Positions 12,592-32,259 of a stretch of DNA of 44,521 bases are shown here, piece after piece (position 1 is the first letter of the stretch; each line of letters begins with the position of its first letter). The translations under genes and the position numbers were made by a program. Source of the DNA: a virus; IMG/VR virus record IMGVR_UViG_3300028595_000023, positions 1 to 44,521 of that record, one strand, 5' to 3'. Under the pieces are notes generated by a model. It was not told the origin of the DNA and made no database searches. It worked only from the letters and a program-made list of their open reading frames with translations.

Positions 12592-12775
12592 TTATTTTCT
12601 CCTCTTTTAACTTTCTTACTAGTTTATTTAAACTAGCATGTACATATTCAAGTCTGGCTTCATATGCACCTAGCAACATATATTTATCAAGTTTATAATC
12701 ATCATGATTACTTTTGATTCGGGTTTCAATTTGCTCTAATGCTCCAATTATATAAGCTCTTGTTAACATATCCAT
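12578..12775 (-). CDS. hypothetical helical protein
   Basis: 65 residues, charged and helical, between the ATPase and exonuclease genes and overlapping the latter by 14 bases. Start uncertain: ATG at 12775 or the in-frame ATG at 12769, which has better AGG spacing. Unknown. Confidence 0.55.
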   Translation of the reverse strand: MDMLTRAYIIGALEQIETRIKSNHDDYKLDKYMLLGAYEARLEYVHASLNKLVRKLKEEKINDCN

Positions 12776-12777
12776 AC

Positions 12778-15068: not shown

Positions 15069-15116
15069 ATTAAGCCTCCTTTTTTTTGAAAAAGGCTTAC
15101 TCACGACTATGGTTGC

Positions 15117-15653: not shown

Positions 15654-16265
15654 TTATAGGTTTATCTCTACACCAATAGATCCAGCTTGATAAAATCCAT
15701 TATAACTTTCCCTAAAATCTTTATATATAACATTAATGTTTTTATTTAGTTTGTAACTTAACTTAGTCTCAATATTCCACGTGTATCCTAAATGAAATGC
15801 AATTAAATTCCATCCAAATTTATTATAATATCCTTTAAACTTATGTCTCCAAGAAACAACCGTTCCATTTACCTTACTATCTTCTATCAGAGCAACACTA
15901 AACTTATGCCTGAATGGGAAATGTAATACATTATCGTTTAATAGCGCAGCAATCCCAACACCAGTTCTAACAGATTTCATATCATTAATTTCATTCCTAC
16001 TATATCCAATAAACATAAAAGGGCTTAATCCATTAGTCGTCATCCAATCAGCCCCCATGTAAAAATCGTCTTTATTCTTATTTCCCATAAGAGTATTTGA
16101 GTATCTAATACTATACTCATTATCTTCATCTAAAAAAGTATATGAAGCACCAGCATTTCTAAAATAACTCGTACCATCAGAAAAAGAACTATAATCTATT
16201 TTTAAATTATAACCCCACGTAAAAGATATTAATAAAACCGCTAATAATTTAATTATTGTTCTCAT
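15654..16265 (-). CDS. predicted outer-membrane beta-barrel protein with signal peptide
   Basis: 203 residues from the ATG at 16265, which has GGAGG upstream (an earlier in-frame start at 16340 covers the tiny gene before it). Signal peptide RTIIKLLAVLLISFTWG, then alternating hydrophobic/polar strands ending with a characteristic C-terminal strand (SIGVEINL). That pattern is typical of a small outer-membrane barrel. Such proteins are rare in phages; receptor masking, superinfection exclusion or envelope disruption are possible roles. Confidence 0.65.
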   Translation of the reverse strand: MRTIIKLLAVLLISFTWGYNLKIDYSSFSDGTSYFRNAGASYTFLDEDNEYSIRYSNTLMGNKNKDDFYMGADWMTTNGLSPFMFIGYSRNEINDMKSVRTGVGIAALLNDNVLHFPFRHKFSVALIEDSKVNGTVVSWRHKFKGYYNKFGWNLIAFHLGYTWNIETKLSYKLNKNINVIYKDFRESYNGFYQAGSIGVEINL

Positions 16266-16284
16266 AATAAGTCCTCCAAGTAAT

Positions 16285-16347
16285 CTATTTTTTCTTTCTA
16301 CGACTTTTATTTTTAGTCTTTTTATATCCTTTAGATCCACATGGCAT
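16285..16347 (-). CDS. tiny basic protein (20 residues)
   Basis: MPCGSKGYKK followed by Lys/Arg-rich residues. Although very short, it has a near-perfect ribosome site (GGAGGTGA) and sits exactly between the ejection-protein stop and the barrel gene. Similar tiny MPCG-type basic proteins follow ejection genes in other podoviruses, from memory. Probably a nucleic-acid-binding or virion peptide. Confidence 0.6.
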   Translation of the reverse strand: MPCGSKGYKKTKNKSRRKKK

Positions 16348-16348
16348 A

Positions 16349-18517
16349 TTATTCACCTCCCTGTTTTGTAAGATCGCTATGTTTTTCATCTCGAATCATC
16401 ATATCTGACAATTTATTAAAAAAACCTATAACAGATTTCTCAGCACCATATCTAATCGACGGCTCTAGCCCACCAAGTTTTCTAACTGTTAAGCTTTTTA
16501 TAGCACCCATCCCTTTCAACGCTGTATCTATTGACATTCCTCCATATTTTTTAAAAGCAAGCATCAACATCCCAAGATTTAAAGCACCCCTAACAGGTGG
16601 TATCATTCTTCCTAAGTCATTCGCCATTATATTTGTACCAATAATACTAATATCTCCGTGATCTAATATTTTCTTTTCTAACTCCCTGCCCTCCTCCACA
16701 AATTTCCATAATACATCATTTTTTACTCTTTCTAATTTCCCCTTAGCTTTAGTTAAAGACTCTATAACTGGTGATATTTCTTTCATTACTTCTTTTTTAA
16801 CTCCTGTTCTAATAGATTCTGCTTTTAAAGATTCAAAGGTTTTTTTAGCCTTACTAAATACATTTTTATTATATAGAGAATTAGAAATTTCACCCATTTG
16901 ATTCATTATGTCATCAGCTGCCAAATCCATTCCGTTATCCCTTAAATACTGTACCTCTGTAAGGATACCTCTTATCTTATCATTTGCTAATAAGAATGAT
17001 TTATCTGTTATATCCTGACCCTCTTTTATACCTGCTTCAAGCTGAGACATAACTCCTTTGATTCCTTTTCTTTGTCTAAATAAAGTGTTTTCTACTTTTC
17101 CTAAAAGAGAATCGAGATTCTTTTCCATCCCAAGCATTTTCCCCCATTTACTACCTAGTTTTCCATATTCTCCACCAACCGACTCATCTACACGACTTAT
17201 CAAACTGTTTGCGATATCATCCAATGCAAAAGCAAATTCTTGATTAGATGCTTTTGACTTCATTGAACTAGCAAAATCCCTAAAAGCTTGTTTTATAAAA
17301 TGAACATCTCTTAATTCTAATTTCGTGCCAACATTTCTCTTTCTCTGTATTTTACTTAATATTGGAACTAATTCTTTTTTTGTTGTCCCTGATAATTCAG
17401 GCATTATTGATTTTATAAAACTAGTTAATTTTGATTTTGCGGAATTTCCAGACGTAGAAAGTATCCCCATTGACCCTAATGCATTATCCAATATATCGCC
17501 AACCTCTATTAATGTATCGCCAGTCTTAGTTTTTAATATATTATTATATTCCTCACTTAACGCTGACCTAACGTCATCAGTCCCCTTAACTATTGTGTCT
17601 GAAAAATTAGCCATTTTCTTTCCAATATCTTCTTTAATTAAATCCAATGACTCACTTGCCTTTTCAAGATTTTTAGAGTTTTGAGTAATCTTATTTTTAA
17701 CTTTTTTTTCTATTAAATCATTAGCAGAACTTTTTGCACTTTCTATTTTATCCTTAAGTCTATAAACTGCTAACTGAGTCCTTCTCTGAAGATCTTGTTT
17801 CTTTAAAATTAGTCCTTGCTGTGCTTTTTTAGCAAGTTCAGATTGAATATATGGATCAGCTAGTTTTCTAGCTTTTTTTCCAACCGCGGAAACTCCTTTT
17901 TTTAGATATGGTGCAGCTTTCTCAACCCCCTTCCCAGTTAAAAAAGTACCAGCCCCAGTTATTAGCCCTTTGCTTGCAGCATCTTCTATTTCTTCGCCTT
18001 TCGCTAATTCTTCACCGATCTTAGATATTCCAGCTATTGTTGACATCGCTTTCAAACCACCGCCAGTTAAAAATGGAGCAGCATGAAATACTTGCCTTAA
18101 TGATTCTTTTGTATGACTCTGCAACTTTGACATTAAAATCTCTGCTTCTGATAGTCCGCTATCTCTTAATTTATTTTCATAAATAAAATTTTCTCTCACC
18201 TGCTCAGGTAGCGGCATTTCTCCTGTTATAAATCTTTTAGGAGTAGTAATAAAAGACCCAATTCTTTGAATAGGATCTTTTCTCATTCTTGACACAACTT
18301 GTTCTTGCTCTGGAGTTAATGCGTCTTTTTTTTCATAACCAGTATAACTATCTCCATCAAATATGCTTGGTTTCTCAACCTCTTTTTTTTCTTGCTTATA
18401 TCCAATTATTGTATTTATTTCATTCTGTATTTTTTCTGGCTGAGATTGATAAAATTTCTGGAAATCCTCTTTACTCATACTTTTTAACTTGCTTGAGAAA
18501 TCTTGGAAGCTAGCCAT
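16349..18517 (-). CDS. putative DNA ejection protein (P22 gp16/gp20-like position)
   Basis: 722 residues, largely helical. N-terminal FQDFSSKLKSMSKEDFQKF, then a Gly/Ala-rich stretch around 150-200 that could insert in membrane, long charged helices and a hydrophobic segment near 660 (GALNLGMLMLAF). Last and largest of three proteins after the hub genes, matching P22 order 7-20-16. Such proteins leave the virion to form a channel across the envelope. Confidence 0.65.
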   Translation of the reverse strand: MASFQDFSSKLKSMSKEDFQKFYQSQPEKIQNEINTIIGYKQEKKEVEKPSIFDGDSYTGYEKKDALTPEQEQVVSRMRKDPIQRIGSFITTPKRFITGEMPLPEQVRENFIYENKLRDSGLSEAEILMSKLQSHTKESLRQVFHAAPFLTGGGLKAMSTIAGISKIGEELAKGEEIEDAASKGLITGAGTFLTGKGVEKAAPYLKKGVSAVGKKARKLADPYIQSELAKKAQQGLILKKQDLQRRTQLAVYRLKDKIESAKSSANDLIEKKVKNKITQNSKNLEKASESLDLIKEDIGKKMANFSDTIVKGTDDVRSALSEEYNNILKTKTGDTLIEVGDILDNALGSMGILSTSGNSAKSKLTSFIKSIMPELSGTTKKELVPILSKIQRKRNVGTKLELRDVHFIKQAFRDFASSMKSKASNQEFAFALDDIANSLISRVDESVGGEYGKLGSKWGKMLGMEKNLDSLLGKVENTLFRQRKGIKGVMSQLEAGIKEGQDITDKSFLLANDKIRGILTEVQYLRDNGMDLAADDIMNQMGEISNSLYNKNVFSKAKKTFESLKAESIRTGVKKEVMKEISPVIESLTKAKGKLERVKNDVLWKFVEEGRELEKKILDHGDISIIGTNIMANDLGRMIPPVRGALNLGMLMLAFKKYGGMSIDTALKGMGAIKSLTVRKLGGLEPSIRYGAEKSVIGFFNKLSDMMIRDEKHSDLTKQGGE

Positions 18518-18519
18518 CT

Positions 18520-19815
18520 TTATTTTCCTCCAGACTGAAAGCTTTCAAAAGCTTTCATTAGATCATCACTAACAACTTGACTAGATGAATCATCTTTAAG
18601 ACCATATTTTTTCGCAATACTTGGTAGTCTCTCTATTTCAGATTCAGGATCAATCTCTAACTCTAACGTTGATAAAAATAACTCTTTAAGCATCTTCATT
18701 TTCTTAATAGCTGTATCCGGATCATTAAACCAGCCAGGAGTAAATAAGGAATCATAAAACTTAACCTCTTCTTTATTTAAAGCAGCTCCAGTTCTAATCC
18801 TTGTTAATATGTCCTCCGCATTTCTAATTGCTGTATTAAATATTGCAGCATCTCCACGACCTAATTTCTTCTCAATCCAGTCTCTATATATATATCGATC
18901 ATCCTCTATCATATTAAGTGCTTGATCTATTGAGTTCAATCCTTGTTTTGCTTTTTGATATTCTGGAGACCTAACTGCTGCCCTATATTCTTGCCTAAGC
19001 TTCTTTTGCTCTTTGATATCTTCTTTTACTTGCGTTTCTGCTGGTATCTGTTTTTCTGCTCTAGGCGGAACTGTTACAGTAATAGCATCATCACCATATC
19101 CTATCTCTACCGTTTTAGGTTTTTGTGTTACATCTGCTTCCTTTAGAGCCATTGATAGCTGTCTCTGCATCATCCTGGTATCTCTTTCTTGAACTTGCTG
19201 AGTTGTTTCAAAAAACACATCAGGAGATTTCCCCGATTTAGTTAGATCGTATATTTCTTGCTTAGTTCTGCCTTCCAATTTCTCCCCTATTATATTCCCT
19301 TTATCATCATATCTATTAGCTCTATATACGTGTATATCATCCCCATTTGCCGAAGTCCCGATTTTCAAACCTTCTGGAACTTTAGCCATCATTTCGCTAT
19401 ATTGAGGATATGCTTCCGCAATATTCTCAAAAAACTCATTTATTTGTTTAGTATCGCCTCTCTTGACCATTTGATTAAGCATTGGTTGATTAAGTTTATA
19501 AAAATTCAAAAACTCCTGTTGCTTCTTTTCTTCTTCTAACTTTAGTTTTTGTTGCTCTAATACTTGTTGTTCTTTCATCTTTTGTTGCTCTAATACTTGT
19601 TGTTGATAAACATTACCATAAGCAGTCTGCGGAGATATTCTAGCCATTACTGGTGTTAATTGAGTCATTTGCTGCTGAGGTGTCATACCTTGTTTCCCTA
19701 GGATATCAACCATCTTCTTTGCAGCACCTATTTTCTGTATATTTTCTAATACTTGTTGTTGAGATGCTAGGTTTTGCCAGTAATCACCTCGTCCTTGACC
19801 TAATAATCCAGCCAT
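18520..19815 (-). CDS. putative internal virion/ejection protein
   Basis: 431 residues. The N-terminal third is Gln-rich coiled coil with repeats of EQQKLK and QQQVLEQQ; the rest is helical and charged. GGAG upstream. Position between the gp7-like and the large ejection-like genes suggests the gp20 role. Sequence family not recognised. Confidence 0.6.
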   Translation of the reverse strand: MAGLLGQGRGDYWQNLASQQQVLENIQKIGAAKKMVDILGKQGMTPQQQMTQLTPVMARISPQTAYGNVYQQQVLEQQKMKEQQVLEQQKLKLEEEKKQQEFLNFYKLNQPMLNQMVKRGDTKQINEFFENIAEAYPQYSEMMAKVPEGLKIGTSANGDDIHVYRANRYDDKGNIIGEKLEGRTKQEIYDLTKSGKSPDVFFETTQQVQERDTRMMQRQLSMALKEADVTQKPKTVEIGYGDDAITVTVPPRAEKQIPAETQVKEDIKEQKKLRQEYRAAVRSPEYQKAKQGLNSIDQALNMIEDDRYIYRDWIEKKLGRGDAAIFNTAIRNAEDILTRIRTGAALNKEEVKFYDSLFTPGWFNDPDTAIKKMKMLKELFLSTLELEIDPESEIERLPSIAKKYGLKDDSSSQVVSDDLMKAFESFQSGGK

Positions 19816-19834
19816 TAAAATCTCCTTTCATTAT

Positions 19835-20647
19835 TTAAAAATAATTCATACCAGTACCTATAGTACCCAATATTCCACCATAATCAGGCTGTCCATAATA
19901 TGATTGTTGAGCCTGTCTCTCTCCAAGTCCAGTATATGCACTAGCTATCGGTGAAGCATATTGACCTAACAAACCAGCTTGTGTTTGCCCTAAACCAGTT
20001 GCCAAATTAGCTAAGTTAGAATATCCCTGCCCCATAGCACCGCCAAGTCCAGTTTGAAGACCAGCCATTTGACCAGCTTGTCCAGTGTATAGATTTGCTA
20101 GGTTTCCAGTAGCACCATAACCTAAATTTATAAGCGGCATTAATGCACTTTGTTGTCTCTGAACTAAACCAGGAAGTAATGCAGCTTGTAATTCTGCTTG
20201 AGCTGATGGTGATGCACTCATTCCACCAGCAGATAATTGTTGCATTCCAAGATTCAGTTGCCTTTGATATGCTGGATCAGTTTCTAATGGAACCGCCCCA
20301 GTGGCTATATCAGTGTATTGTTGCAATGGAGAAATGCCAGTTTGAGCATATGGACTATAACCAGATATAGCTTGTTGATATCCAGTTGTAATATCTTGCA
20401 TTCCTCTCTTGTAATAATCCTCAAGAGACTTCATTCCTTCGCCAAGAAAGTCTTCTGCTCTACCATATTGTTCACCAGTAACATTAAGACCCATCTGCTG
20501 TGCACCTTTTAAATAATCAATAGCTGATTGCTGACCACTAGCTGCCTTACCATAGGCATCCCCTTTATCACTAGCACCCATTACATCAGATAATACTTTA
20601 CCACCAGTCGTTAATAAACTTGCAAAACTTACGGGATCTATTGGCAT
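19835..20647 (-). CDS. putative DNA transfer protein (P22 gp7-like)
   Basis: 270 residues, rich in Gly, Ala, Gln and Tyr: repeats such as GYGATGNLANLYTGQAGQMAGLQTGLGGAMG. The opening SFASLLTTGGKVLSDVMGA and its position as first ejection gene are typical of gp7-type DNA transfer proteins. In P22 this protein is ejected with the DNA. Overlaps the end of the acetyltransferase-like gene's spacer by one base. Confidence 0.65.
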   Translation of the reverse strand: MPIDPVSFASLLTTGGKVLSDVMGASDKGDAYGKAASGQQSAIDYLKGAQQMGLNVTGEQYGRAEDFLGEGMKSLEDYYKRGMQDITTGYQQAISGYSPYAQTGISPLQQYTDIATGAVPLETDPAYQRQLNLGMQQLSAGGMSASPSAQAELQAALLPGLVQRQQSALMPLINLGYGATGNLANLYTGQAGQMAGLQTGLGGAMGQGYSNLANLATGLGQTQAGLLGQYASPIASAYTGLGERQAQQSYYGQPDYGGILGTIGTGMNYF

Positions 20648-21103
20648 TTATCTCAACTCCTTTGCGTATGATTTTTCTATATAATTAAACCCTTCTCTTT
20701 CAAGCATTTTACCCATAGAATTTTTTATGTTTGCACCAATACAGAAAACTTTACACTTCTTTCTTTTAGCCCAATCATCCATATGCTTTAACAAAGCCCA
20801 CTGAACTATTATTCTTTTTTTCTTAGATAATTCAGGATCACTATGCCAAATAAACTCATAAGCCCACATTTCTCTTAAATTACATATATTAGAAACGATA
20901 GAAATTCCAGCAATTCCATATATTTCTTTTTTTTCCTCAAGAATAAAAACTTCCTTTTCTCTATTCCCAATAACACCAGCTAGAATTATTTCAACACTAT
21001 TTCTGTCAAAACCTTGCTTTTCTTTTGGCATCTCTGTTACACATTTCTCTAAAAAATTTATGACATTAAAAATATCTTTACCATCTAGTTCACGTATTTT
21101 CAT
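20648..21103 (-). CDS. GNAT-family acetyltransferase-like protein
   Basis: 151 residues from the ATG at 21103 (AGAGG upstream; the ATG 33 bases earlier lies in the previous gene without a site). Fold pattern: KIRELDGKDIFNVINFLEKC, a central strand IYGIAGISIVSN, and the acetyl-CoA region KKKRIIVQWALLKHM, ending with MLEREGFNYIEKSY. Placed between hub and ejection genes, where GNAT proteins occur in some podoviruses; target unknown, possibly virion proteins or host factors. Confidence 0.7.
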   Translation of the reverse strand: MKIRELDGKDIFNVINFLEKCVTEMPKEKQGFDRNSVEIILAGVIGNREKEVFILEEKKEIYGIAGISIVSNICNLREMWAYEFIWHSDPELSKKKRIIVQWALLKHMDDWAKRKKCKVFCIGANIKNSMGKMLEREGFNYIEKSYAKELR

Positions 21104-21299
21104 ATCCAGCCTCTCGCATCTCCTGAAGCAATTCATTAATTACTTTTTGCTGATTAGATATTATTCTGAATAAATAAGCAAGGTTTTCATCAATAGTTGA
21201 GTCACCAGTTATTTGAATTGGAGTTTCATTATCTATTGCACTCCAATCTCCTGATTGCTCTATCTTAAATGTCCTTTTTGGTATTGCTATAGCTCTCAT
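21090..21299 (-). CDS. small structural protein after the hub gene
   Basis: 69 residues. N-terminal RAIAIPKRTFKIEQSGDW, C-terminal heptad-like helix (NLAYLFRIISNQQKVINELLQ). It directly follows the gp10-like gene and overlaps the next start by 14 bases. Position is that of the P22 needle gene, but it is far shorter; may be a tail plug or assembly factor. Confidence 0.5.
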   Translation of the reverse strand: MRAIAIPKRTFKIEQSGDWSAIDNETPIQITGDSTIDENLAYLFRIISNQQKVINELLQEMREAGYENT

Positions 21300-22754
21300 C
21301 TAATAACTCCTACTAGTCTCACGAGCGTCTTCCCAAAACCCATTAAATACAATGTTTGCATTATCACCAAAAACAATCCTGTAAGTCCTAGTTTTATAAT
21401 AACCCATCGGCATTAATGGTCCAAACTTTTCTCTTTTACCAATAGCCCCTAAATCTAATTCGACATCATTTCCAAATATCTCAGTATCATTATCAGACCA
21501 TGATATATATGCTTTAGGCGCACTATATTTATCGTCAGACTTACCCTCTCCACGCTTTATGTCAACAAGAAGCTTCTTACTTACTTTATAGTTTTTTGAT
21601 CCAAGGTCATAGTTTCCAAATAATAATATTGTCTGCATCGCATCATTATTATCTTTGTAATAGTCAGGACTAAACTCATAAACAATACTATCATTTAAGT
21701 CACCCATAACATGGAAACCCCAGTCTTTACAGTAAGCATAAGATGCAGCAAGAAATCTATCATGATCTGTGTTATTCCAATTACCCCATCTATACCAAGC
21801 TTTAGAACCTGTATCATAAACAAATGTTTTATTTTGGTCTGTGAAGCTTATAATCCAATATTGACGACCACCGATTGTTGAAACAAATGTGGCCTCTGCA
21901 TCTCTAATAGGTCCAAGTGAATCAAATTCTTTTTGATATGCTTCTCCAATATAAACAGGAGTATAGCCATTAAGATAAACAGGCTGTCTATCTGAGTTAA
22001 GGAATATTACATTATCATAAAGTATCCCATAAGAATATGGAGAAGCAAGCCCAGTACTTATTATTGTGCCAACTGGAGCAAATGGAATAGTGTCACCCAC
22101 GTTATACCATATCTCAATACTTTCTCTACCGCATACGTAAATTTTATTATTCTTTCCGAACAAAGCGATAACATCATCAGGTATTCTTTGTGCAGCATAA
22201 GTTCTTGATCCGCTTCCTGAATCAAAGTTTGTAGGATCATTAACAACGGATTGCAAAAACTGAGCAGATTTATCAAGATCATTACACAATAAATATGTAT
22301 CTATTTGAGCAATATGGGTACATCTCGAAGGTGCATTATTTCCAGTTAATGTTCCAGCATTTACACCATTAGTCCAATATACAGCACCGCCATTTGCCAT
22401 AAACAATCTAGTCTCTGCATTTACAACATCGTAAACCTCGTCGAATATTACCTTTTGATTGACTATTAAATTAACTCCAATAATCTCATTTACCTCGCTG
22501 AAATCTTTTTTTGGAATTACATAACACTTACCATTAGTAACTGCAATTAGGGATGATATTGAGTCAAACCAGTGCAAATCAATCCTTGCACCCTCGCTTA
22601 AATCTTTAAGTTTTCTTAGCCCTGGTCTTCTCTGTAGAGAAACATTACTTTCTTGATCTACAATCATAATCCCATCTATAATTTCTCTCATAGAGTTAGT
22701 TATAGTGGTTTTATCTATGTTTTTATAAGGAGGTAATATTGGTAATTTTTTCAT
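21300..22754 (-). CDS. tail hub / packaged-DNA stabilisation protein (P22 gp10-like)
   Basis: 484 residues, beta-propeller-like with repeated WxxG and Tyr-rich strands. Opening LPILPPYKNIDKTTITNS and QRRPGLRKL resemble gp10-like proteins, which close the portal after packaging. The order (gp4-like before, short gene and ejection genes after) fits. The match is by general pattern, not by specific conserved residues. Confidence 0.65.
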   Translation of the reverse strand: MKKLPILPPYKNIDKTTITNSMREIIDGIMIVDQESNVSLQRRPGLRKLKDLSEGARIDLHWFDSISSLIAVTNGKCYVIPKKDFSEVNEIIGVNLIVNQKVIFDEVYDVVNAETRLFMANGGAVYWTNGVNAGTLTGNNAPSRCTHIAQIDTYLLCNDLDKSAQFLQSVVNDPTNFDSGSGSRTYAAQRIPDDVIALFGKNNKIYVCGRESIEIWYNVGDTIPFAPVGTIISTGLASPYSYGILYDNVIFLNSDRQPVYLNGYTPVYIGEAYQKEFDSLGPIRDAEATFVSTIGGRQYWIISFTDQNKTFVYDTGSKAWYRWGNWNNTDHDRFLAASYAYCKDWGFHVMGDLNDSIVYEFSPDYYKDNNDAMQTILLFGNYDLGSKNYKVSKKLLVDIKRGEGKSDDKYSAPKAYISWSDNDTEIFGNDVELDLGAIGKREKFGPLMPMGYYKTRTYRIVFGDNANIVFNGFWEDARETSRSY

Positions 22755-22755
22755 T

Positions 22756-24627
22756 TTAAAGTATCTCGTTACTTGATAAATTTACCTCTACAGAAATAGA
22801 ATTAGCACCATTTCCACCACTGCCAGCAGAAGGAGATCCAGCCCCGAAACTACCGCCAGTCCCACCATTCGCACTTAGGCTTATATTCCCACTACCAGTT
22901 TTAGAACCATAAACTAAAACAATTCCACCAGCACCGCCACCGCCACCGCCACCGCCTGACGCTTCTCCTGTTGTTCCAGTCCCATCACTACCATCATCCC
23001 CATCAGTTATTATAACTAGATCTTCATTTAGTATTAAGTTTTTTACAAATATAGCAACACCAGCACCACCATTTCCACCGTTACCACCAGAAGAACTTGC
23101 AGCACCATCATCTGTACCACCTGTACCACCACTACCACCTTGACCAAAACTTATTGGATTATTAATGAAATAGTTAAATGCAACATTATCTATATCAATA
23201 GCATCTTCTCCATCATTCCCAGCTGTATCACCACTCCCAGGAGAAACTCCAAGCGCACCATCTACGTTATTAATATTAAATAAACTAACCCACGCCTTAC
23301 AGTCTCCTGAATCACCACTAGTCCCAGTACCATCTGATCTATTACCAGAACCACCTGTGCCACCCTGACCACCAACACAATAACCAAATTCAACATCATC
23401 TGAATCAATAGAAGATCCACTACCAGTCGCACCACCTGTTCCAGCACTTCCACCCCTAACTGATTTACCCTTAGCGTTTATTGTCGCACCACCTGATTTA
23501 TTAACAATTAAAGTATCGGCTCTTATTACTAACCAACCAACGGAACTTGATACAGTTATGTTGCTATCGATTGTTATTGTTTTAAATAAATACTCACCAC
23601 CCATAGATGAATAAGCAGAGGATAAGTCATCGCCATGTAATCCATTTCCTATTTCAATATTAAAACTAGATATAATAAATCCATTATCTATATACCTAGT
23701 AGATATTGTATCGTTTTCTATATAATCAACATTCAAGCTAGATATGTAAGACAAATCAGAAGATATCACATCTGATTCTATGTAATCAGAATTAATAGTT
23801 ATCAATCTAGCATTTGAAGCATTTAACGAATCAATACTAGATGAAACTATTGTAGAAGTATTAATGCTAACAGTCCCAATATCAGAGTATGTAATATTAG
23901 CAATATCAATACTCGCATTATCATAATAAAGATTGTTTCCTGATATAGAGATTGCTGTTAATCCTGAATTACCTTCCCATTCGTCATAGTAAGAATTTTG
24001 GCTCAGAGTTATATCTCCAAGGCCAGTAAATATTTCATATTGACCAGCAAAAACATCACCCTGAACAATCATTGAAACGCCAGTAGATATATCAAACTTA
24101 GACCCATGTAAAACATAGAGCGTTACATTGCTTGGAAATGTTAGATTAGAAGCAACAGTATATGTATCTGAACTAAATAAAAAAGTAGCCTCGGTACTAC
24201 CTATATCAGTTATCGCATTTTCTAAAGCCGTGGTATTTGTTCCATACTCAGATTTTATATCAATAAAATTACTAGCAGTAACAATATCTCCATAACTAAC
24301 TCCGTCTATGGTCAAATAAGTAGTTCCATCGCTTTGCTTATAAACTACTTTGTAATAACCCTCTGCAAAAACTCCTATCGGATTAACACCATCTATTGCC
24401 TGACCATTAGAGTTTAAGTTGATTGGCTGGCTTAATACAGTTGTTTTATTAGCGTCTGAATAAACATCTTTATATGTAGAACTACCATCATTTTCAAAAA
24501 ACTCAACAGTTCCGTTACTTAAAAAAGAACCTGCGCCGTCACCAACACCAGATATTAAGTTATCTACTTGTTGAGTAGCAGCAAACAACAAACTAAATAA
24601 CAAACAAGCCGCTAATTTTTTAATCAT
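22756..24627 (-). CDS. signal-peptide tailspike/fibre with head-binding-like domain and polyglycine C-terminus
   Basis: 623 residues. A Sec-like leader (IKKLAACLLFSLLFAATQ) comes first, then a segment (about 40-110) resembling the P22 tailspike head-binding domain (LSQPINLNSNGQAIDG...GYYKVVYKQSDG). The middle (140-330) is a repetitive beta-helix with many Asp/Ser turns. The C-terminal third (about 385-610) is extremely Gly-rich (GGTGG, GGNGG), like polyglycine-sandwich adhesin tips. Likely a receptor-binding protein; the leader is unexpected. Confidence 0.7.
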   Translation of the reverse strand: MIKKLAACLLFSLLFAATQQVDNLISGVGDGAGSFLSNGTVEFFENDGSSTYKDVYSDANKTTVLSQPINLNSNGQAIDGVNPIGVFAEGYYKVVYKQSDGTTYLTIDGVSYGDIVTASNFIDIKSEYGTNTTALENAITDIGSTEATFLFSSDTYTVASNLTFPSNVTLYVLHGSKFDISTGVSMIVQGDVFAGQYEIFTGLGDITLSQNSYYDEWEGNSGLTAISISGNNLYYDNASIDIANITYSDIGTVSINTSTIVSSSIDSLNASNARLITINSDYIESDVISSDLSYISSLNVDYIENDTISTRYIDNGFIISSFNIEIGNGLHGDDLSSAYSSMGGEYLFKTITIDSNITVSSSVGWLVIRADTLIVNKSGGATINAKGKSVRGGSAGTGGATGSGSSIDSDDVEFGYCVGGQGGTGGSGNRSDGTGTSGDSGDCKAWVSLFNINNVDGALGVSPGSGDTAGNDGEDAIDIDNVAFNYFINNPISFGQGGSGGTGGTDDGAASSSGGNGGNGGAGVAIFVKNLILNEDLVIITDGDDGSDGTGTTGEASGGGGGGGGAGGIVLVYGSKTGSGNISLSANGGTGGSFGAGSPSAGSGGNGANSISVEVNLSSNEIL

Positions 24628-24652
24628 AATTTACCACCTTTCAACAAATAAC

Positions 24653-24991
24653 TTATTTTTGCTTTGAAGTTATTAGCTCCTTAATTCCATCTATATGAAC
24701 ACCTATAAATTCTCTTAGATCGTCCATCTTTCTATCAAAGTTTAACACATGCTCTTTAAATGCCTTCATTTCGACAAACGTATTATGCAGCTTTTCTCTA
24801 TCATAAAACTTGTAATCAATCGTCTCTTTATCTTTTTCATAATCATTTTTCAGAACAAAATCTCTCTCATATCTTTCCTTCGTTAATTTATATGCTATAG
24901 CACTTATGATTCCAGCAACAGCAAACAAAGCGAGTATTAATCCAAGCAAAGAGTAAAGCTGTTTAATATCTATAATCATCTGACCTGACAA
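24653..24991 (-). CDS. single-pass membrane protein with coiled coil
   Basis: 112 residues. Transmembrane helix at about 14-34 (LLGLILALFAVAGIISAIAY), then a charged helical tail. Size and layout fit an inner-membrane spanin or holin-like protein; it is part of a three-gene membrane cluster at 24653-25847. Confidence 0.5.
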   Translation of the reverse strand: MSGQMIIDIKQLYSLLGLILALFAVAGIISAIAYKLTKERYERDFVLKNDYEKDKETIDYKFYDREKLHNTFVEMKAFKEHVLNFDRKMDDLREFIGVHIDGIKELITSKQK

Positions 24992-25000
24992 GTTAATACC

Positions 25001-25459
25001 CTACAATGCTAATCCAGCTAGAAAAAAACCTATTGCTATAAATATAGGATTTTCCCAAAAGTTACGCTCAATTTTTCCTTCCATTATTTTATTATAATAA
25101 TCAGCTCGATCACGTATCTCGATATAACCATTTATAAACTCTTTTATGTCGGAATTTAATTTATCAATTTCTTTTTGTTGTTTTGATATTAAATTATCAT
25201 TATTCTGTATTTTATCAAACTGATCCAATATCTGTTTTTCTTTTAAAGATATATCTAGTTTTAACTCATCCTCATACTTAGTATCTCTAACAGGAACTTC
25301 AACCTTAACTTCTTTCTCAATAATGACTGGATCAATTTTTTTTCTTTCCACTTTTATTACAATATCATCATCTCTGTATATCTCACTCTCAATTACACCA
25401 CCTGCAAAAACTGTCCCAACAACCATAGTTCCAATTAATAATATTTTTCTAATTCTCAT
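25001..25459 (-). CDS. exported coiled-coil protein with C-terminal membrane anchor
   Basis: 152 residues. N-terminal leader or anchor (RIRKILLIGTMVVGTVFAGG), a basic/acidic VEVP-rich stretch, coiled coil (about 70-125), then a C-terminal hydrophobic segment (NPIFIAIGFFLAGLAL). Two membrane ends joined by a periplasmic coiled coil would suit a spanin-like role. Unproven. Confidence 0.5.
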   Translation of the reverse strand: MRIRKILLIGTMVVGTVFAGGVIESEIYRDDDIVIKVERKKIDPVIIEKEVKVEVPVRDTKYEDELKLDISLKEKQILDQFDKIQNNDNLISKQQKEIDKLNSDIKEFINGYIEIRDRADYYNKIMEGKIERNFWENPIFIAIGFFLAGLAL

Positions 25460-25472
25460 ACTTTTCTCCTTT

Positions 25473-25847
25473 TTAAAATTTTAATTCAAATACAACTAAG
25501 CCATATCCGAGATAATCAAACACCAAATCATTAATACTAAACCCTGTTTTATCAAGGTCAAATATTTCTTTACCAAAGAACAACAAAGACGCACCAAAAA
25601 ACAACAAACTCTTGTCTGCCTGAATGGCTATTAGCTCCTTAGACTCACTACAAGTTAATTGATACTCATATTTCTTTCCAACCTGTTTTAAATAATGATC
25701 TCTTCGCATTGCATTAATTGTCGCATCTGCAAACTTAGTGATACCAGCACTTAACACTGTGTGATTTGCAACATCCCTTTGCAAGCTTTCTGTACTGCAT
25801 AAACACATTGTTGACACTAACAAAATGGTAATAAGTATATTTTTCAC
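25473..25847 (-). CDS. exported protein, YfiM/DUF2279-like
   Basis: 124 residues. Leader KNILITILLVSTMCLC, then a periplasmic segment with DHYLKQVGKK, and a hydrophobic SLLFFGASLLFFGKEIFD followed by DLVFDYLGYG. The GKE-x-D and D-x-x-G spacing recalls YfiM-type envelope proteins, at low confidence. No clean lipobox is present. Confidence 0.4.
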   Translation of the reverse strand: MKNILITILLVSTMCLCSTESLQRDVANHTVLSAGITKFADATINAMRRDHYLKQVGKKYEYQLTCSESKELIAIQADKSLLFFGASLLFFGKEIFDLDKTGFSINDLVFDYLGYGLVVFELKF

Positions 25848-25903
25848 TATTCAAACCCTTTATACTCTTCGTTTACTTTTATTCCCATCTTATTTATCCT
25901 CCT

Positions 25904-27214
25904 TTACCAAGTAGCTATAGCTACCCGTTTCCAAGTATTTGTCGCAACACAAATGTATATATAATCTGAATCCCATGTAATAGTGCCTGTTGTTCCAGTA
26001 TCACTCGCCGAACTTGGTGTTTTAGTCGAGGCTATTATATCCCCACCTACTTCTAGATCCCCGTTAGTAACTCCGACATCACCTTGAAGACTTATCTCCC
26101 TTCCTGTGCCCACTATTATATTCACATCATTAGCCGGCGAAGATAAAGTTAAATCGTCTAACGGTGCGGTGATGGTTCCACCTGCCACACCAAGCAGTCC
26201 AATCCCACCACTGGTAACTGCTAGTGAAGCACATGTCATATCACCACCTACCTCTACATCAGAACCGACGTTCAAATCGCCATCGATATTCAATTCTTTT
26301 GAAGATAAGTTGCCAGTAATTAAATCACCTATGTTTAACTCATTACTAGCCCCTATATAACTTGGCTCGACATCATAACCAATTATTATATTACTATCCC
26401 CAGACTGAACATTGTCCCCAGAATAATTACCGACAACAACATTATTAATACCACCGTCTAGATTAGTAGCAGCGCCAACACCGATAATTACGTTGTCATC
26501 CTTATCTCCGCCATTAAAAGCAGCAGTATATCCAATAATTACATTATTATCACCCTCGCCTGGTGCAGCTGAGTATGCACCGACTATAGTATTGAAATCA
26601 CCACCAAAAGATATTCCTGCATTACTCCCAATAAATACACCTGCACTTGCTGTTATAACAGAACCACCAGCACTATATCCAACTGCCGTTGATTCTTGGC
26701 TTTGTTTTAAAACTCCAAGCGCACCATTTCCTATAGCCGTATGGTTAAGACCATTATTTTGCCTTCTTAATGCGTTTTGCCCAACAGCTGTGTGTCTACG
26801 TGTTGTTCCAGTAAACTCATCCAATGCATATTCGCCAAGCTTAACACTAGTTTGGTCAGAAGGATTTGTTCTTAGCTCTCCATATAGATTTAGTATCTGA
26901 AAATCTTTCCCACTTATATTATTTACTGACACAGAATCTGCTTCTAGTTCATTAGAAATAATATCGTTATCAACTTCTATAGAACCAACATTTAATGATG
27001 TTATTGCTGCTTTTGATATTACATTTTGAGATAATGCGCTCTCTACTGAATTAGCAATAGTAGCACTTCTATAATTAGCACTATCATCAGATATAAGTAA
27101 CAACTTTGAACTTGAGACAAATACTTCCTCTGTATATTCAGGTATTGTTTTTCTGGCACAATAACTAGTGCTTAGAAGTAATGATATCGCTAATAAACTT
27201 AGTGTCTTTTTCAT
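25904..27214 (-). CDS. signal-peptide fibre with YadA-head-like repeats
   Basis: 436 residues. Leader KKTLSLLAISLLLSTSYCA. Residues about 150-290 hold repeats typical of YadA/Hep_Hag adhesin heads (HTAIGNGALG, NTIVGAYSAA, NVIIGYTAAF, NVVVGNYSG), which form a trimeric left-handed roll. The end (TITWDSDYIYICVATNTWKR) is a common fibre C-terminus. A middle module (GGTITAPLDDLTL...ISLQGDV) is shared with the protein at 29537. Confidence 0.75.
   Translation of the reverse strand: MKKTLSLLAISLLLSTSYCARKTIPEYTEEVFVSSSKLLLISDDSANYRSATIANSVESALSQNVISKAAITSLNVGSIEVDNDIISNELEADSVSVNNISGKDFQILNLYGELRTNPSDQTSVKLGEYALDEFTGTTRRHTAVGQNALRRQNNGLNHTAIGNGALGVLKQSQESTAVGYSAGGSVITASAGVFIGSNAGISFGGDFNTIVGAYSAAPGEGDNNVIIGYTAAFNGGDKDDNVIIGVGAATNLDGGINNVVVGNYSGDNVQSGDSNIIIGYDVEPSYIGASNELNIGDLITGNLSSKELNIDGDLNVGSDVEVGGDMTCASLAVTSGGIGLLGVAGGTITAPLDDLTLSSPANDVNIIVGTGREISLQGDVGVTNGDLEVGGDIIASTKTPSSASDTGTTGTITWDSDYIYICVATNTWKRVAIATW
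26077..26243 (-). repeat. shared fibre module, copy 1
   Basis: About 165 bases clearly similar to 29828-29993 within another fibre gene, both coding GGTITAP-x-DDLTL and ISLQGDV. The pair points to domain duplication between fibre genes. Confidence 0.8.
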
Positions 27215-27249
27215 GATGTAAGTTCCTCCAATAGATTATGTATTAATTT

Positions 27250-27690
27250 TCATTTCCAACCACCAAAGCAATGACCTGACGGTGTAACCGTTATTTTGTT
27301 GCCGTCCGCATCAATAGCATCATACGGTTTAAAATAGTCTGTATCGTCTTCACATTCAAACTCTTTTAGTTCTTCGTCTCTTACTAATTTATAAGTAGCT
27401 GGATAAAATTCTTCACCTTCTGAGTATGCTTCTTTATTGATTACTTTTTTATACCCATAAGCAATACCGTCTTTATCAGTTACTGATATGATCTTAGGAT
27501 CTTTTTCTTTTACTATTTCAAACGCTTGATCTTTTTGTTCTAATGTCATAATTGCATGAAATAACCTTCTACCATTTTCTTCTCTACCAATAGGGAATAC
27601 TTGCGATATCCCTAGTTCAGAATATGCTTCTTTTTGTTCTTCTGTTAGTTTAGGTTCTATTAATTCACTCCATTTAAATTGATATATCAT
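27250..27690 (-). CDS. hypothetical protein, possible fibre-assembly factor
   Basis: 146 residues without a signal peptide, in contrast to both neighbours. Its ATG overlaps the previous stop (ATGA), so it is probably made in step with the 617-residue fibre, as fibre chaperones often are. N-terminus YQFKWSELIEPKLTEEQKEA. Family not recognised. Confidence 0.5.
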   Translation of the reverse strand: MIYQFKWSELIEPKLTEEQKEAYSELGISQVFPIGREENGRRLFHAIMTLEQKDQAFEIVKEKDPKIISVTDKDGIAYGYKKVINKEAYSEGEEFYPATYKLVRDEELKEFECEDDTDYFKPYDAIDADGNKITVTPSGHCFGGWK

Positions 27691-29540
27691 AGTGTTGTTT
27701 CTCCGATCATTAGGTTAGTTGGCAATTTACGCTTCCATATTTTTAGGTTCTTTATTGTTCCGTTTAATGGATTATCTCCATTATCTGCTCTAATACCTAT
27801 GCCTAATAAGCTCGCATCAAAATCATTATCAAAAGTACCTTGAATTGATGCTGTCCCGCTTTGAAATGTTGTAGCACTACTTCCACCCCAATTCGTCGCA
27901 ATCTTTTGTAAGGAGCTCGATCCAGTAAAACTATCTCCAGTTATATTATTTATTCCATCATACATTGCTAAATTACCATTCCTAATAAATGCTGCGTATC
28001 TATTAGGACCTACTGACAGTATTGTCTTATTATTAATCTGAGTTATCCACTCTGTCGTAAACTCTGCACTCATAGAACCTTTGGTTGAATCAATAACTCC
28101 ACTGCTTGTATAGCTCAGTATGTCTGCGTTTCTTGTTTTTGTTGTTGCTTCGGTTGGTATGTAGCTTGTTGCGTGTACTCCTTGTTCTAGTTGTATATTT
28201 TTAATGTAAAACCCTTTTGTTACGTCTCCTAAGTAAGTATTAGTAGTTCCGCTAGGTGTACCTGTATTACTTGGTTGAATAGTTATAGCATCATTCCCTG
28301 CCGTTCCTATTTTACTAACCAATATACATTCATAATATCCAGCTTCAGATAATACATTCATTGTTGCATTTAGTATTACCCCAGTACCATTAGTATCTTG
28401 CTCGGATATAGTCCCATTAGTAAAATCGTATGTAGCATAACAATAATTATCTCCCCATTCGTTTGTTAAAACTAAATAATCTCTACCAATAGATTTGGCT
28501 ACTACTCTTAAAGAATGATAATCTGTCTCAGACGATTGTATGTTTAACTGAGCTATTTTGTGTACATTATTTACAGCTGTTTCTAATATTTTATCCGTTG
28601 ATGCTGTAACATTTGTATCATCCCATTGTGTTAAATCATCTGAATAAGTAACTAAATTAGTAGCTTGATTCTCTATCATCACCCCTTTAAGCGTTGAATG
28701 TGGGATATCCGCTCCTCTTGCTTCAGTTACTACATTGCTCGCTACGGTATTTCCATTCTCATAAGGGAAGTATTTCACTCCATCAACGTTACAGCCATGA
28801 TACGGTGCTGATAGTACCCCTGTTGATACGTATTCGCTAGGATTCTGGTTGGATTGTCCTGTTACTTTCTCAACTTGCCAATCTGTAATATTTAAAACTA
28901 CCGCATCACTTACTCTAATATTTGGGTATAGTTCAGTTCCACCAGCATCTGTTGTTACTTCAATCGTAAATCTTGCAGAACCTAGATTATATAATTGCAT
29001 TCCAACGAATCCTATTGTAGCTGGGACAGCATCCCCTATCATTCTAATCATTACCCCACCATCACCACTAATATTACCAGAAACAAGTTCTATATTAACC
29101 GAAAACACATAGGTATCGTAGTCGTTATTATCTACAACTATTGGATAAGTGCCTAGTATAGGATTTAAGTCTACATTAGCAGTCCCATCAAAAGAAACTT
29201 GTGTTGCAGAATTTATTGTTCCACCTGAATCTATCGTATACCCAGAAGTCATATCCTCTGAGTTAACCGCCATTAGATTCTCAACACGTCTAGCACATTT
29301 ATGCCTTGACTCTCCGATTTTAACTTCTCTAATTATGCCTTCAAAATCTTCAAAAGTTGCCGTTGTCGCTCTTGTGAAACTTGGAGTTGAGTCTCCACGA
29401 TCAGGTACAATAGTATGAGTTAATTTCGCTTCTAACCCATCAGGATGCTCAAGCACCCAATTATGAACACCACCTGTAAAGTTAGAAAAACTTAATGTGG
29501 CTATAAGTATGGATAATAATATTCGTTTAAACTTAATCAT
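27687..29540 (-). CDS. large signal-peptide fibre with carbohydrate-binding-like domains
   Basis: 617 residues from the ATG at 29540, which overlaps the upstream TGA. Leader IKFKRILLSILIATLSF. Two segments resemble phage-fibre carbohydrate-binding modules (ending DWQVEKVTG and IQLEQGVHATSYIP), and the C-terminal 150 residues look like a LamG/concanavalin-type sandwich (GSMSAEFTTEW ... LKIWKRKLP). Likely a receptor-binding or surface-glycan-binding protein. Confidence 0.7.
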   Translation of the reverse strand: MIKFKRILLSILIATLSFSNFTGGVHNWVLEHPDGLEAKLTHTIVPDRGDSTPSFTRATTATFEDFEGIIREVKIGESRHKCARRVENLMAVNSEDMTSGYTIDSGGTINSATQVSFDGTANVDLNPILGTYPIVVDNNDYDTYVFSVNIELVSGNISGDGGVMIRMIGDAVPATIGFVGMQLYNLGSARFTIEVTTDAGGTELYPNIRVSDAVVLNITDWQVEKVTGQSNQNPSEYVSTGVLSAPYHGCNVDGVKYFPYENGNTVASNVVTEARGADIPHSTLKGVMIENQATNLVTYSDDLTQWDDTNVTASTDKILETAVNNVHKIAQLNIQSSETDYHSLRVVAKSIGRDYLVLTNEWGDNYCYATYDFTNGTISEQDTNGTGVILNATMNVLSEAGYYECILVSKIGTAGNDAITIQPSNTGTPSGTTNTYLGDVTKGFYIKNIQLEQGVHATSYIPTEATTKTRNADILSYTSSGVIDSTKGSMSAEFTTEWITQINNKTILSVGPNRYAAFIRNGNLAMYDGINNITGDSFTGSSSLQKIATNWGGSSATTFQSGTASIQGTFDNDFDASLLGIGIRADNGDNPLNGTIKNLKIWKRKLPTNLMIGETTL

Positions 29541-30118
29541 ATCGCTAACCACTGAGTCCCATCGGATACTACCGTTATTGTATCTCCTTGAGTTGTTAAT
29601 GTTTGTATCAACTCAAATTCTACTTCCTCACTTAAATAACCATCAATAGTGACATTATTCGTTGTTGAATCTATTTTCTTTATCGTGTACTGCAATGACT
29701 CTGCTGCTGGAAATAATGTTATAGTTGTCGCACCATCTGTCGCATCTACAAATATAATCTGCTTGGTTGATGCTTCATAGTTTTCGGTTACTGTTATTTG
29801 ACTTAACTTTAATCTCCTAGTAATTTCAACATCACCTTGAAGACTTATTTCTCCTGTCCCAGCAATAACCTCCACATCATTAACTGGTGAATATAAAGTT
29901 AAATCATCTTGTGGAGCAGTTATAGTTCCACCCGAAGCACCAAGCAAACCAACACCACCACCGCTGACTGATAGAGAATCGCATGTCATATCTTCTACTT
30001 GAACATCGCCACCTACTTTCAAATCACCTACCCATTCTCCACCATGAACGCCAAATAGACGACCATAATTACTAAAACTAATTGTTAACAATATTAATAA
30101 TAGAAGTGTTTTTTTCAT
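29537..30118 (-). CDS. signal-peptide fibre-like protein
   Basis: 193 residues. Leader KKTLLLLILLTISFS. It carries the module shared with 25904-27214 (about 45-95) and a C-terminal domain with DATDGATTITLFPAAES and VVSDGTQWLAI, the typical end of phage fibre and capsid-fibre proteins. Coupled to the next gene by ATGA overlap. Confidence 0.7.
   Translation of the reverse strand: MKKTLLLLILLTISFSNYGRLFGVHGGEWVGDLKVGGDVQVEDMTCDSLSVSGGGVGLLGASGGTITAPQDDLTLYSPVNDVEVIAGTGEISLQGDVEITRRLKLSQITVTENYEASTKQIIFVDATDGATTITLFPAAESLQYTIKKIDSTTNNVTIDGYLSEEVEFELIQTLTTQGDTITVVSDGTQWLAI
29828..29993 (-). repeat. shared fibre module, copy 2
   Basis: Counterpart of 26077-26243, with clear nucleotide similarity along its length. 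Confidence 0.8.
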
Positions 30119-30133
30119 TTATTTTCTCCCTAT

Positions 30134-30589
30134 TTAGTCATCCCAAGCCTTAATATTAATACTAACAACAGCATCTGCATTCGCAGACGGATTTTCAATC
30201 TTTATCCTAGCTCTCATGCTTTCTAATGTAGTGACAATACTATTAAAATCAACAGTCTGAACATTTGAAGATGCTAGACTATCTTCAGGATCACTTGAAT
30301 CAAAAGGATTAAGCCATGTTATAGTGTAATTAGTTAGTGGCACGCCAGAATTTCCAACAACATCAACTTTAATTCCATCCCAATGTAATATCCCCTCAAT
30401 ATCTAGCTCAATATAATTCTCATCTCCTGTTGGTATTGTGTACCCATCAGTGTAAAATTGAAAAAACTTATCATTATATGCTCCATGAATTGAACCATCA
30501 GAAGGAAAGACGCTATTTACTTTAGGTCCTTGAGTCAAATAACCTAGTGATAATGTTAGTAATAAAAGTAATACCATTGTTTTTTTCAT
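30134..30589 (-). CDS. signal-peptide protein of the tail module
   Basis: 151 residues. Leader KKTMVLLLLLTLSLG, then a beta-rich body (YIELDIEGILHWDGIKVDVV) with no Cys. AGGAGG upstream. It sits between the gp4-like gene and fibre genes. Probably a beta-sandwich; role unknown. Confidence 0.65.
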   Translation of the reverse strand: MKKTMVLLLLLTLSLGYLTQGPKVNSVFPSDGSIHGAYNDKFFQFYTDGYTIPTGDENYIELDIEGILHWDGIKVDVVGNSGVPLTNYTITWLNPFDSSDPEDSLASSNVQTVDFNSIVTTLESMRARIKIENPSANADAVVSINIKAWDD

Positions 30590-30604
30590 TTTATTTCTTA
30601 CCTC

Positions 30605-31537
30605 CTATTGATATAAATATGGGTGAAAACTAACATCCCCACACTCTTCATTTAAGCCTTCTAATTGTTGCTCGGCTTCTAACATATTTTCTTTTAATTG
30701 ATTGTATTTACTATCTGATAATGCACCATAATTCAAGTGAACCTCTACCCCTAATTTCAAATGCCAATACCTAACTGCCTCTCTCAAGAAATCAATCTGT
30801 TTAGTTAAGTCGCTAGTTATCCTATCGCTAAATCTATAAACCTCTAATCCAATATTAAAATCTATTGATGTTGGATATGGGTATAGCACAACTCTATTAA
30901 TTGGATCATTTTCTAATTTTCTTCGTCTATAATATATTGAATTTGGTCTTCCTACTGAATTTATCTTATTTCCATACCCGAAATAATTATCAGTAGTTAA
31001 GTTCGTAAACATCTCTCTATCATACGAGCTAGAATCTCTATAATAACCAGCTCCTATGCAAAAAATATTATCATCTAAATCTATTACGCTAATACTATTA
31101 TAACTTTCTCCTGATTCCCACTCGTCAGGCTCGTCATCTGATAAGATATTCCCATCACCATCAACAATAATAAAACCACTTCCATCAACTACAATATTAG
31201 CACCTGCACTATCTTCGGTGATCTCTTTCCAAAATCCTCTCCACTGACCACCTGACCCTGGTCTATTATCAAAAGATGAGGTGTGAGGATATACGCATTC
31301 ATAATAATTATCATCAATTTTTACAAAGTCAGATGGTTCAGGCTCTAAATATATCCAATCTGACTTAAAATTACTTCTATGATTCCCTGGGAAACTATCA
31401 ACTAATGAACTAAGTAGCTCTAAGCCTTCTGTTTTTTGTGCGGATGTTAAGTTTTGCCCATTAGCAATTAAGCCATTATGTCGATATGCTTGTTTTATAA
31501 CCTTATCTATGTTTAATGTTACTTCACTTGATGTCAT
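30605..31537 (-). CDS. head completion / tail accessory factor (P22 gp4-like)
   Basis: 310 residues. The opening SSEVTLNIDKVIKQAYRHNGL and LELLSSLVDSFP match the helical start of gp4-like proteins, which bind the portal and begin tail assembly. A middle insertion (about 75-140) with WRGFWKEI and VVDGDG is unusual and may be an added domain. The C-terminal helix region (FLREAVRYWHLKLGVEV) is also typical. Located between coat and hub genes as in P22. Confidence 0.7.
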   Translation of the reverse strand: MTSSEVTLNIDKVIKQAYRHNGLIANGQNLTSAQKTEGLELLSSLVDSFPGNHRSNFKSDWIYLEPEPSDFVKIDDNYYECVYPHTSSFDNRPGSGGQWRGFWKEITEDSAGANIVVDGSGFIIVDGDGNILSDDEPDEWESGESYNSISVIDLDDNIFCIGAGYYRDSSSYDREMFTNLTTDNYFGYGNKINSVGRPNSIYYRRRKLENDPINRVVLYPYPTSIDFNIGLEVYRFSDRITSDLTKQIDFLREAVRYWHLKLGVEVHLNYGALSDSKYNQLKENMLEAEQQLEGLNEECGDVSFHPYLYQ

Positions 31538-31539
31538 AA

Positions 31540-31746
31540 TTAATCAAACCTATGTGGCCTTTCTAGTGATCTCACTTTAACATAACTATTTTGATTCTCT
31601 GGAACATGAAACTCTTTCAAAACCCTAGCTTTTGTATCTTTATCAATTATCATATCAGAGCGATAACCGATAAGACCAGTTTGGTCACACCTTCTTAAGT
31701 GTGTGCCAGCTATATATCCTTTTTTTCTTCTTCTATATTTGACCAT
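31540..31746 (-). CDS. small basic structural protein
   Basis: 68 residues, Arg/Lys-rich (VKYRRRKKGY) with RRCDQTGLIGYRSDM. No Shine-Dalgarno sequence is visible; instead a hairpin (31757-31780) stands 11 bases upstream. Unknown. Confidence 0.55.
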   Translation of the reverse strand: MVKYRRRKKGYIAGTHLRRCDQTGLIGYRSDMIIDKDTKARVLKEFHVPENQNSYVKVRSLERPHRFD

Positions 31747-31756
31747 AATATTTAAT

Positions 31757-31780
31757 ACAGGACGGCATAAACCGCCCTGT
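31757..31780 (-). other. hairpin between coat and tail genes
   Basis: ACAGGACGG (31757-31765) pairs with CCGCCCTGT (31772-31780) with one G-T pair in the RNA. It could attenuate late transcription between head and tail genes or protect an mRNA end. No clean T-tract follows. Confidence 0.5.
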
Positions 31781-31791
31781 CAAAAAAACAC

Positions 31792-32259
31792 TTACTTGTT
31801 GTCAACAAAACTAACTTCAATAGCACTTACAGCTGTAGCATCAGTTGATGGTATCCCCATAAGCATTATTATATCGGATGGATCACTTAGCGTTCTAGTA
31901 GCACCACCTAAATGTAAAACATTGCTTTCTTGGAAAACAATATCTTGTGATGCTAGACTTGACCTAATAATAACTATATCTCCTGCATTAAGCTGAGAGA
32001 TGATATTTACTGTAGAGACAGCAGCGTCATCTTCAGTATCTATTTGGTTATAACTACCATATACGTTTAAAGTAGCTCCAGAAACATCAATAGAAGTCAC
32101 CCCATCTAATTTCAAATCCAAGTCAGGTAATTTTTCTAACGCAAAAAAACGTTGAGGCTTCAGATTATAGTTCTTAGTATAATCTCCTTGGCCTAATCGA
32201 TCTCTTGCGCCAAAAGACAACGCAAAAACAGCAATAAGAAGGACTAATATATTTTTCAT
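31792..32259 (-). CDS. signal-peptide protein after the major capsid gene
   Basis: 155 residues. Leader KNILVLLIAVFALSFGA with a plausible Ala cleavage site. The C-terminal half (LNAGDIVIIRSSLASQDIVF and later strands) resembles the C-terminal fold of phage fibre/head-fibre proteins. AAGGAGG upstream. Directly after the coat gene, so a head-fibre or decoration role would fit were it not for the leader. Confidence 0.65.
   Translation of the reverse strand: MKNILVLLIAVFALSFGARDRLGQGDYTKNYNLKPQRFFALEKLPDLDLKLDGVTSIDVSGATLNVYGSYNQIDTEDDAAVSTVNIISQLNAGDIVIIRSSLASQDIVFQESNVLHLGGATRTLSDPSDIIMLMGIPSTDATAVSAIEVSFVDNK

Follow-up and report, generated by a model that had tools for sequence, protein, structure and literature searches.

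The window analysed here is a complete virus record of 44,521 bases (IMG/VR record IMGVR_UViG_3300028595_000023). Its late operon, which runs on the minus strand from ∼39949 down to 15654, was found to encode nine proteins with predicted Sec-type leaders, and four of these (genes 29537, 27687, 25904 and 22756, named by their lower coordinate) carry, by homology, virion-fibre or tailspike domains. In each of the four, the sequence places a leader-type N-terminus ahead of a virion-type domain; relatives of these domains elsewhere have no leader. Tailed-phage virions are taught as being assembled wholly in the cytoplasm. An explanation to which we give an even chance is that the leaders are functional Sec signal peptides, and that the fibres would be exported, mature in the periplasm and join the particles at lysis.

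The N-terminus of each of the nine proteins consisted of 1–3 basic residues, a continuous hydrophobic core and then small residues, which by our rules are the features of a Sec type I leader (basic n-region, hydrophobic h-region and small residues at –3/–1), although the sites of 29537, 30134 and 27687 were not ideal AxA. The leader calls rest on rules and comparison. The rule in use recovered 14/14 textbook E. coli Sec leaders and replaced an earlier, stricter rule that had found only 7/14; under the stricter rule, no annotated fibre gene scored in P22, crAss001 (partial), Cellulophaga phi38:1 (partial) or Nonlabens P12024S. The initial annotation had proposed nine late proteins with Sec-type N-termini and core genes (coat, portal, gp4-like, gp10-like, ejection) without them, and both statements were borne out, as the rule recovered 9/9 candidates and 0/20 of the remaining late proteins. 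When the late proteins were residue-shuffled, the rule fired on a mean of 0.34 and a maximum of 3 proteins (500 trials), compared with the 9 observed. For a natural background, the rule was applied to ORFs of 100 aa or longer that lie no more than 10 kb downstream of the major capsid gene in 138 loci of the same phage group. Only 14/731 scored, with at most two per locus and many of them false by eye, whereas 8/12 scored in the matching zone of the window (Fisher p 7e-11). Single leader-bearing proteins were observed in the fibre zones of other related phages: a 563-aa acidic protein in the alphaproteobacterial single-cell genome AG-910-K03 (L208:11790-13481), and four further proteins (L097:13188-16277, L095:2398-2952, L200:15195-15581 and L232:12014-12391) that gave no family matches explaining them.

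A good Shine-Dalgarno sequence was found directly before the leader ATG of 31792, 30134, 29537, 25904, 25001 and 22756, and 25473 has a GTG start with a weaker one. Most of the annotated starts were kept, but two were corrected: 27687 to the ATG at 29540, which overlaps the stop of 29537 and has only a weak Shine-Dalgarno, and 15654 to the ATG at 16265, behind GGAGG. Copying of a leader cassette between genes was rejected, as the leader DNAs were mostly identical at only 19–37/60 bases; the leaders are not DNA-level copies of one another and were thus kept, or gained, separately. No clear lipobox (L-[AST]-[GA]-C) was seen at any leader end; one rule matched a cysteine within the 22756 core, where it lies too early for a lipobox.

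The clearest case was 22756. Its residues 30–111 matched a profile built only from tailspikes and fibres of other phages (profile E 2e-9; pairwise E 5e-7). The mature part of 22756 and the leaderless tailspike of a related phage (L017) both matched PHROG_26190 in the same register from the N-terminus (E 1.7e-6 for 22756), and the predicted mature N-terminus of 22756 falls at the start of the profile, indicating that the leader is an exact addition before the domain. The P22 head-binding domain PF09008 gave no Pfam match in 22756 up to E 5, and an AlphaFold model of the N-terminal domain from the single sequence (pLDDT 45) was not used. In 27687, residues 310–486 matched the RcGTA head spike fibre Rcc01080 (6tb9_F3, E 1.6e-11), and the protein also matched tail-protein PHROGs (E 1.8e-22). 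The YadA-head-type repeats and the fibre C-terminus of 25904 also occur in fibres of relatives that have no leader. An N-terminal motif common to fibres was suspected in this protein as well, but its profile drifted to an unrelated family and the idea was dropped. The domain at 114–189 of 29537 is common to leaderless structural or tail proteins of HTVC027P and 023Pt_psg01 and to the L017 tailspike, a set seeded from the window protein itself. Fibre or tailspike homology, as first annotated, stands for all four proteins, but the LamG-like label does not, the RcGTA head spike fibre domain in 27687 being the better description. It was also observed that residues 31–101 of 29537 are 70% identical to a stretch of 25904 (a 73-residue shaft), which lies near the N-terminus of the former and near the C-terminus of the latter.

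The combination of leader and fibre, for which a search in related phages had been proposed, was found again in four Gluconacetobacter prophages and about a dozen other Acetobacteraceae fibres. Gluconacetobacter asukensis, dulcium, johannae and azotocaptans harbour prophages that belong to the same capsid group and share a tail fibre beside the adaptor gene; the fibres are 52–62% identical, and their distal end varies between species. The sequences of their leaders have diverged, but the exit site was kept (VSAWA/QYAPF or APAVA/QYAPF, the slash marking the exit site), and this conserved AxA/Q site gives indirect support for the predicted removal by signal peptidase. When 300 Acetobacteraceae genomes were searched with the N-terminal 120 residues of this fibre, five further fibres were returned, all with leader-like N-termini; the matches begin mostly behind the leader, and the clearest of the five lie just downstream of baseplate genes. 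Among 40 sampled stretches downstream of baseplate J, ∼7 had leader-bearing fibre-like proteins and many had leaderless fibres. The leader-bearing tail fibres in other Acetobacteraceae prophages, several of them downstream of baseplate J, included a pair (L278 and L279) that is 66% identical end to end with different leaders, and one (L295) whose leader stands before a fibre N-terminal domain found without a leader in L293. Five others (L281, L282, L283, L288 and L294) were observed to share a conserved tip, C-x-D-C ... W-x-D, possibly a disulfide-linked receptor-binding tip.

Exported disulfide-bonded proteins tend to have even cysteine numbers. It was found that 16/17 leader-bearing Acetobacteraceae fibre-like proteins had an even number of cysteines in the mature part, compared with 29/55 leaderless neighbours with any cysteine. 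Cysteine density did not differ between leader-bearing and leaderless fibres; the difference was in parity alone. The even counts would fit proteins that mature in an oxidising periplasm.

Export of real virion fibres is favoured because the attachment domain stands directly behind the leader, the leader was kept across Gluconacetobacter species and the cysteine counts were even in the Acetobacteraceae. We infer, with strong support, that the window fibres would be exported and cleaved and, as a further step, that they may be added to the virion at lysis. Fibre and tailspike precursors would cross the inner membrane via Sec, and cleavage of the leader would make the particle-binding domain the mature N-terminus again. 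The fibres would then fold outside the cytoplasm, with disulfides where cysteines allow, and would bind otherwise finished heads once holin action and lysis let the compartments mix. P22 tailspikes add last, and in vitro, to tailspike-less particles, so late fibre addition is physically reasonable. The initial annotation had offered three options, namely display on the infected cell, periplasmic addition during lysis and anchoring in the virion, and was partly supported. Periplasmic addition fits best, yet the computed results do not separate it from surface display.

Several points weigh against export and periplasmic addition. The reading is built on leader rules and sequence comparison. Single-protein scans of IMG/VR with the capsid, Hc3 and 22756 found no close relative of the window, and a diderm envelope for its host is an assumption. 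The parity evidence comes from Acetobacteraceae fibres; the window fibres have 2, 4, 2 and 1 cysteines (the one being in 29537), too few for a parity test, and 30134 and 31792 have none. The parity test is support rather than proof, because its members are partly related and it was conceived after seeing the data. Fibre addition in a dilute lysate could be inefficient, and receptor-binding proteins, once exported, might attach to the surface of the cell that made them.

It seems unlikely, though it is the strongest competitor, that the exported fibres act on the infected or lysogenic cell and are not, or not mainly, virion parts. Displayed or released, they might serve there as adhesins, mask receptors, block superinfection or stop adsorption to debris. 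The Sec leaders would agree with such a role, as would the other exported-looking proteins of the operon (25473, 25001 and 15654), and a precedent is provided by PblA/PblB of phage SM1, tail proteins that holin and lysin release and that serve in the virion as well as on the cell surface as adhesins (PMC7600539). However, 22756 retains its virion-anchoring N-terminal domain right behind the leader, the genes occupy the position of the virion fibre genes of relatives, and the window has no leaderless copies to serve as a virion set. A dual fate is a still more doubtful proposal: owing to leader efficiency or timing, a share of each fibre would stay cytoplasmic and be assembled normally, and the remainder would be exported and displayed. 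Similar fibre domains with and without a leader do coexist in one phage group, and PblA/PblB show a dual location (PMC7600539), but the even cysteine counts point to export as the productive route, in Acetobacteraceae at least.

At least as improbable is the idea that the hydrophobic N-termini are virion anchors plugging into pockets of base proteins. The head fibre of RcGTA is a direct precedent (PMC7296036; also PMC10218006), but the RcGTA peptide alternates Leu-Gly and starts Ile-Ala, whereas the window cores are continuous and stand after basic residues and before small residues. Moreover, likely envelope proteins of the same operon have the same type of leader, the leader of 22756 stands before a domain that is N-terminal, and presumably particle-binding, elsewhere, and the Gluconacetobacter leaders retain an AxA-type site. 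A start-site or assembly artefact, with true starts downstream of the leaders or genes that are not phage genes, would agree with the weak Shine-Dalgarno of 27687 but is very improbable, since most leader ATGs are well preceded, the genes are packed in one late operon syntenic with relatives and the pattern recurs independently in cultured species.

The remaining five leader-bearing proteins are listed in Table 1 with the core genes. Of the five, 25473, 25001 and 15654 were judged by eye, with no family match, to be probable envelope or lysis proteins of an ordinary exported kind encoded in the same operon. A leader is unremarkable on these three, which leaves six surprising proteins, four of them with tested fibre homology. 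By eye, 25473 is probably an envelope protein and not a virion part; a family search gave no match. The features of 25001 point to a spanin-like lysis protein; as a unimolecular spanin, to be recognised by a lipobox and a C-terminal transmembrane segment, it showed the hydrophobic C-terminus and no lipobox. The product of 15654 resembles an outer-membrane barrel by eye only, with no Pfam, PHROG or phage match. No relatives of 31792 and 30134 were detectable, and homology to the small capsid-adjacent proteins of relatives was looked for and not found; an AlphaFold model of 31792 from the single sequence (pLDDT 39, confident only for the leader helix 2–17) was not used.

Table 1. Leader-bearing proteins and core genes of the late operon. 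A slash marks the end of the predicted leader.
Gene	Coordinates	Strand	Protein	Leader	Remarks
36271	36271..38115	-	portal protein	none	
32274	32274..33197	-	major capsid protein	none	
31792	31792..32259	-	155-aa protein	MKNILVLLIAVFALSFGA/RD	directly after capsid gene; remainder beta-rich
30605	30605..31537	-	head-tail adaptor	none	core gene; hhalign profile match, probability 67%, to adaptor cluster of relatives
30134	30134..30589	-	151-aa protein	MKKTMVLLLLLTLSLGYLTQG	
29537	29537..30118	-	193-aa fibre-like protein	MKKTLLLLILLTISFSN/YG	C-terminal domain 114–189
27687	27687..29540	-	617-aa fibre	MIKFKRILLSILIATLSFSN/FT	start ATG 29540; RcGTA head spike fibre and tail-protein PHROG matches
25904	25904..27214	-	436-aa fibre	MKKTLSLLAISLLLSTSYCA/RK	YadA-head-like repeats; common fibre C-terminus
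25473	25473..25847	-	124-aa exported protein (probable)	MKNILITILLVSTMCLC	GTG start
25001	25001..25459	-	152-aa protein	MRIRKILLIGTMVVGTVFA/GG	coiled-coil-like middle; hydrophobic C-terminus
24653	24653..24991	-	112-aa single-TM (transmembrane) coiled-coil protein, putatively holin-like	no Sec leader	
22756	22756..24627	-	623-aa tailspike-type protein	MIKKLAACLLFSLLFA/ATQQ	leader directly before tailspike N-terminal domain (30–111); glycine-rich C-terminus
21300	21300..22754	-	head closure Hc3 / gp10-like stabilisation protein	none	
15654	15654..16265	-	203-aa protein	MRTIIKLLAVLLISFTWG	start ATG 16265 behind GGAGG

The gene order of the window (portal, scaffold region, major capsid, adaptor, Hc3, GNAT-like gene and ejection genes) is that of HTVC027P/Pam1-type short-tailed phages. 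Portal, capsid, adaptor and Hc3 were found in order, which places the window in this group, with 24–34% identity for portal and capsid. The GC content is ∼33%, and one replication-type gene points to Firmicutes-like phages; our guess is that the host is a low-GC diderm such as a fusobacterium. The region 11707-15104 (minus strand) encodes a DUF3799 PD-(D/E)XK exonuclease, an AAA ATPase and a possible annealing protein. The best match of the exonuclease is to Paenibacillus phage PG1 (40%), which gives the early half a Firmicutes-like affinity, in contrast to the late half, which belongs to a proteobacterial/marine phage group. Other observations were a protein with a C-terminal Tad2-like domain (Thoeris anti-defence 2; 42758-43231, minus strand, Pfam E 2e-25), a 54-residue ORF of CDSCNSC-type repeats, very rich in cysteine (6917-7081, plus strand), and a tiny, very basic peptide, MPCGSKGYKKTKNKSRRKKK, with a strong GGAGG before it, between the last ejection gene and 15654 (16285-16347, minus strand).

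Searches of the open-licence literature found no account of a Sec leader on a receptor-binding fibre of a tailed phage. The leaders on fibres here and in viruses of acetic-acid bacteria suggest that, for some viruses, fibres are completed beyond the cytoplasm, the compartment in which the remainder of the particle is assembled. Whether this is a recurrent, undescribed route of tailed-phage morphogenesis, in which fibres are Sec precursors that acquire their mature form in the periplasm (in some lineages with disulfides), join cytoplasmic heads at lysis and arose several times by addition of a leader before ordinary fibre genes, is a proposition we rate slightly short of even. Prior export of fibres, if it occurs, would move a late stage of particle assembly into another compartment and make periplasmic folding and disulfides available to fibres, and a lysing cell could carry or shed the receptor-binding proteins of its virus. 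The Gluconacetobacter prophages reside in cultured species and make this directly testable. For annotation, the presence of a signal peptide should not by itself exclude a protein from the virion.

Signal peptides are known on phage lysis or conversion proteins. Coat proteins of filamentous phages would resemble the window fibres in being virion proteins with cleavable signal peptides; they differ in being assembled at the membrane during extrusion, and their phages are not tailed dsDNA phages, which build their heads in the cytoplasm. HTVC027P/Pam1-like phages have the gene order of the window, but their fibre-zone proteins are almost all without a leader (the 14/731 above, many false). Compared with P22-type tailspikes and PHROG_26190 (e.g. 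Caudoviricetes sp. MW202785 'tail spike protein'), 22756 is alike in the position of the domain relative to the mature N-terminus and in adjoining the head-closure gene; it differs in the prepended ∼16-residue Sec leader, the glycine-rich C-terminus and the absence of a PF09008 match. Part of the RcGTA head spike fibre Rcc01080 (PDB 6tb9) is matched by 27687. The N-terminus of the RcGTA fibre is a short Leu-Gly anchor peptide, for which no basic n-region is described (PMC7296036), and 27687 instead begins with basic residues that lead into an unbroken hydrophobic core. PblA/PblB of the streptococcal phage SM1 are tail proteins that also act outside the cytoplasm and are freed by holin and lysin, with no signal peptide mentioned in the review (PMC7600539). 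The window fibres would be like PblA/PblB as phage tail proteins with a role outside the cytoplasm, and would differ from them in the route of release.

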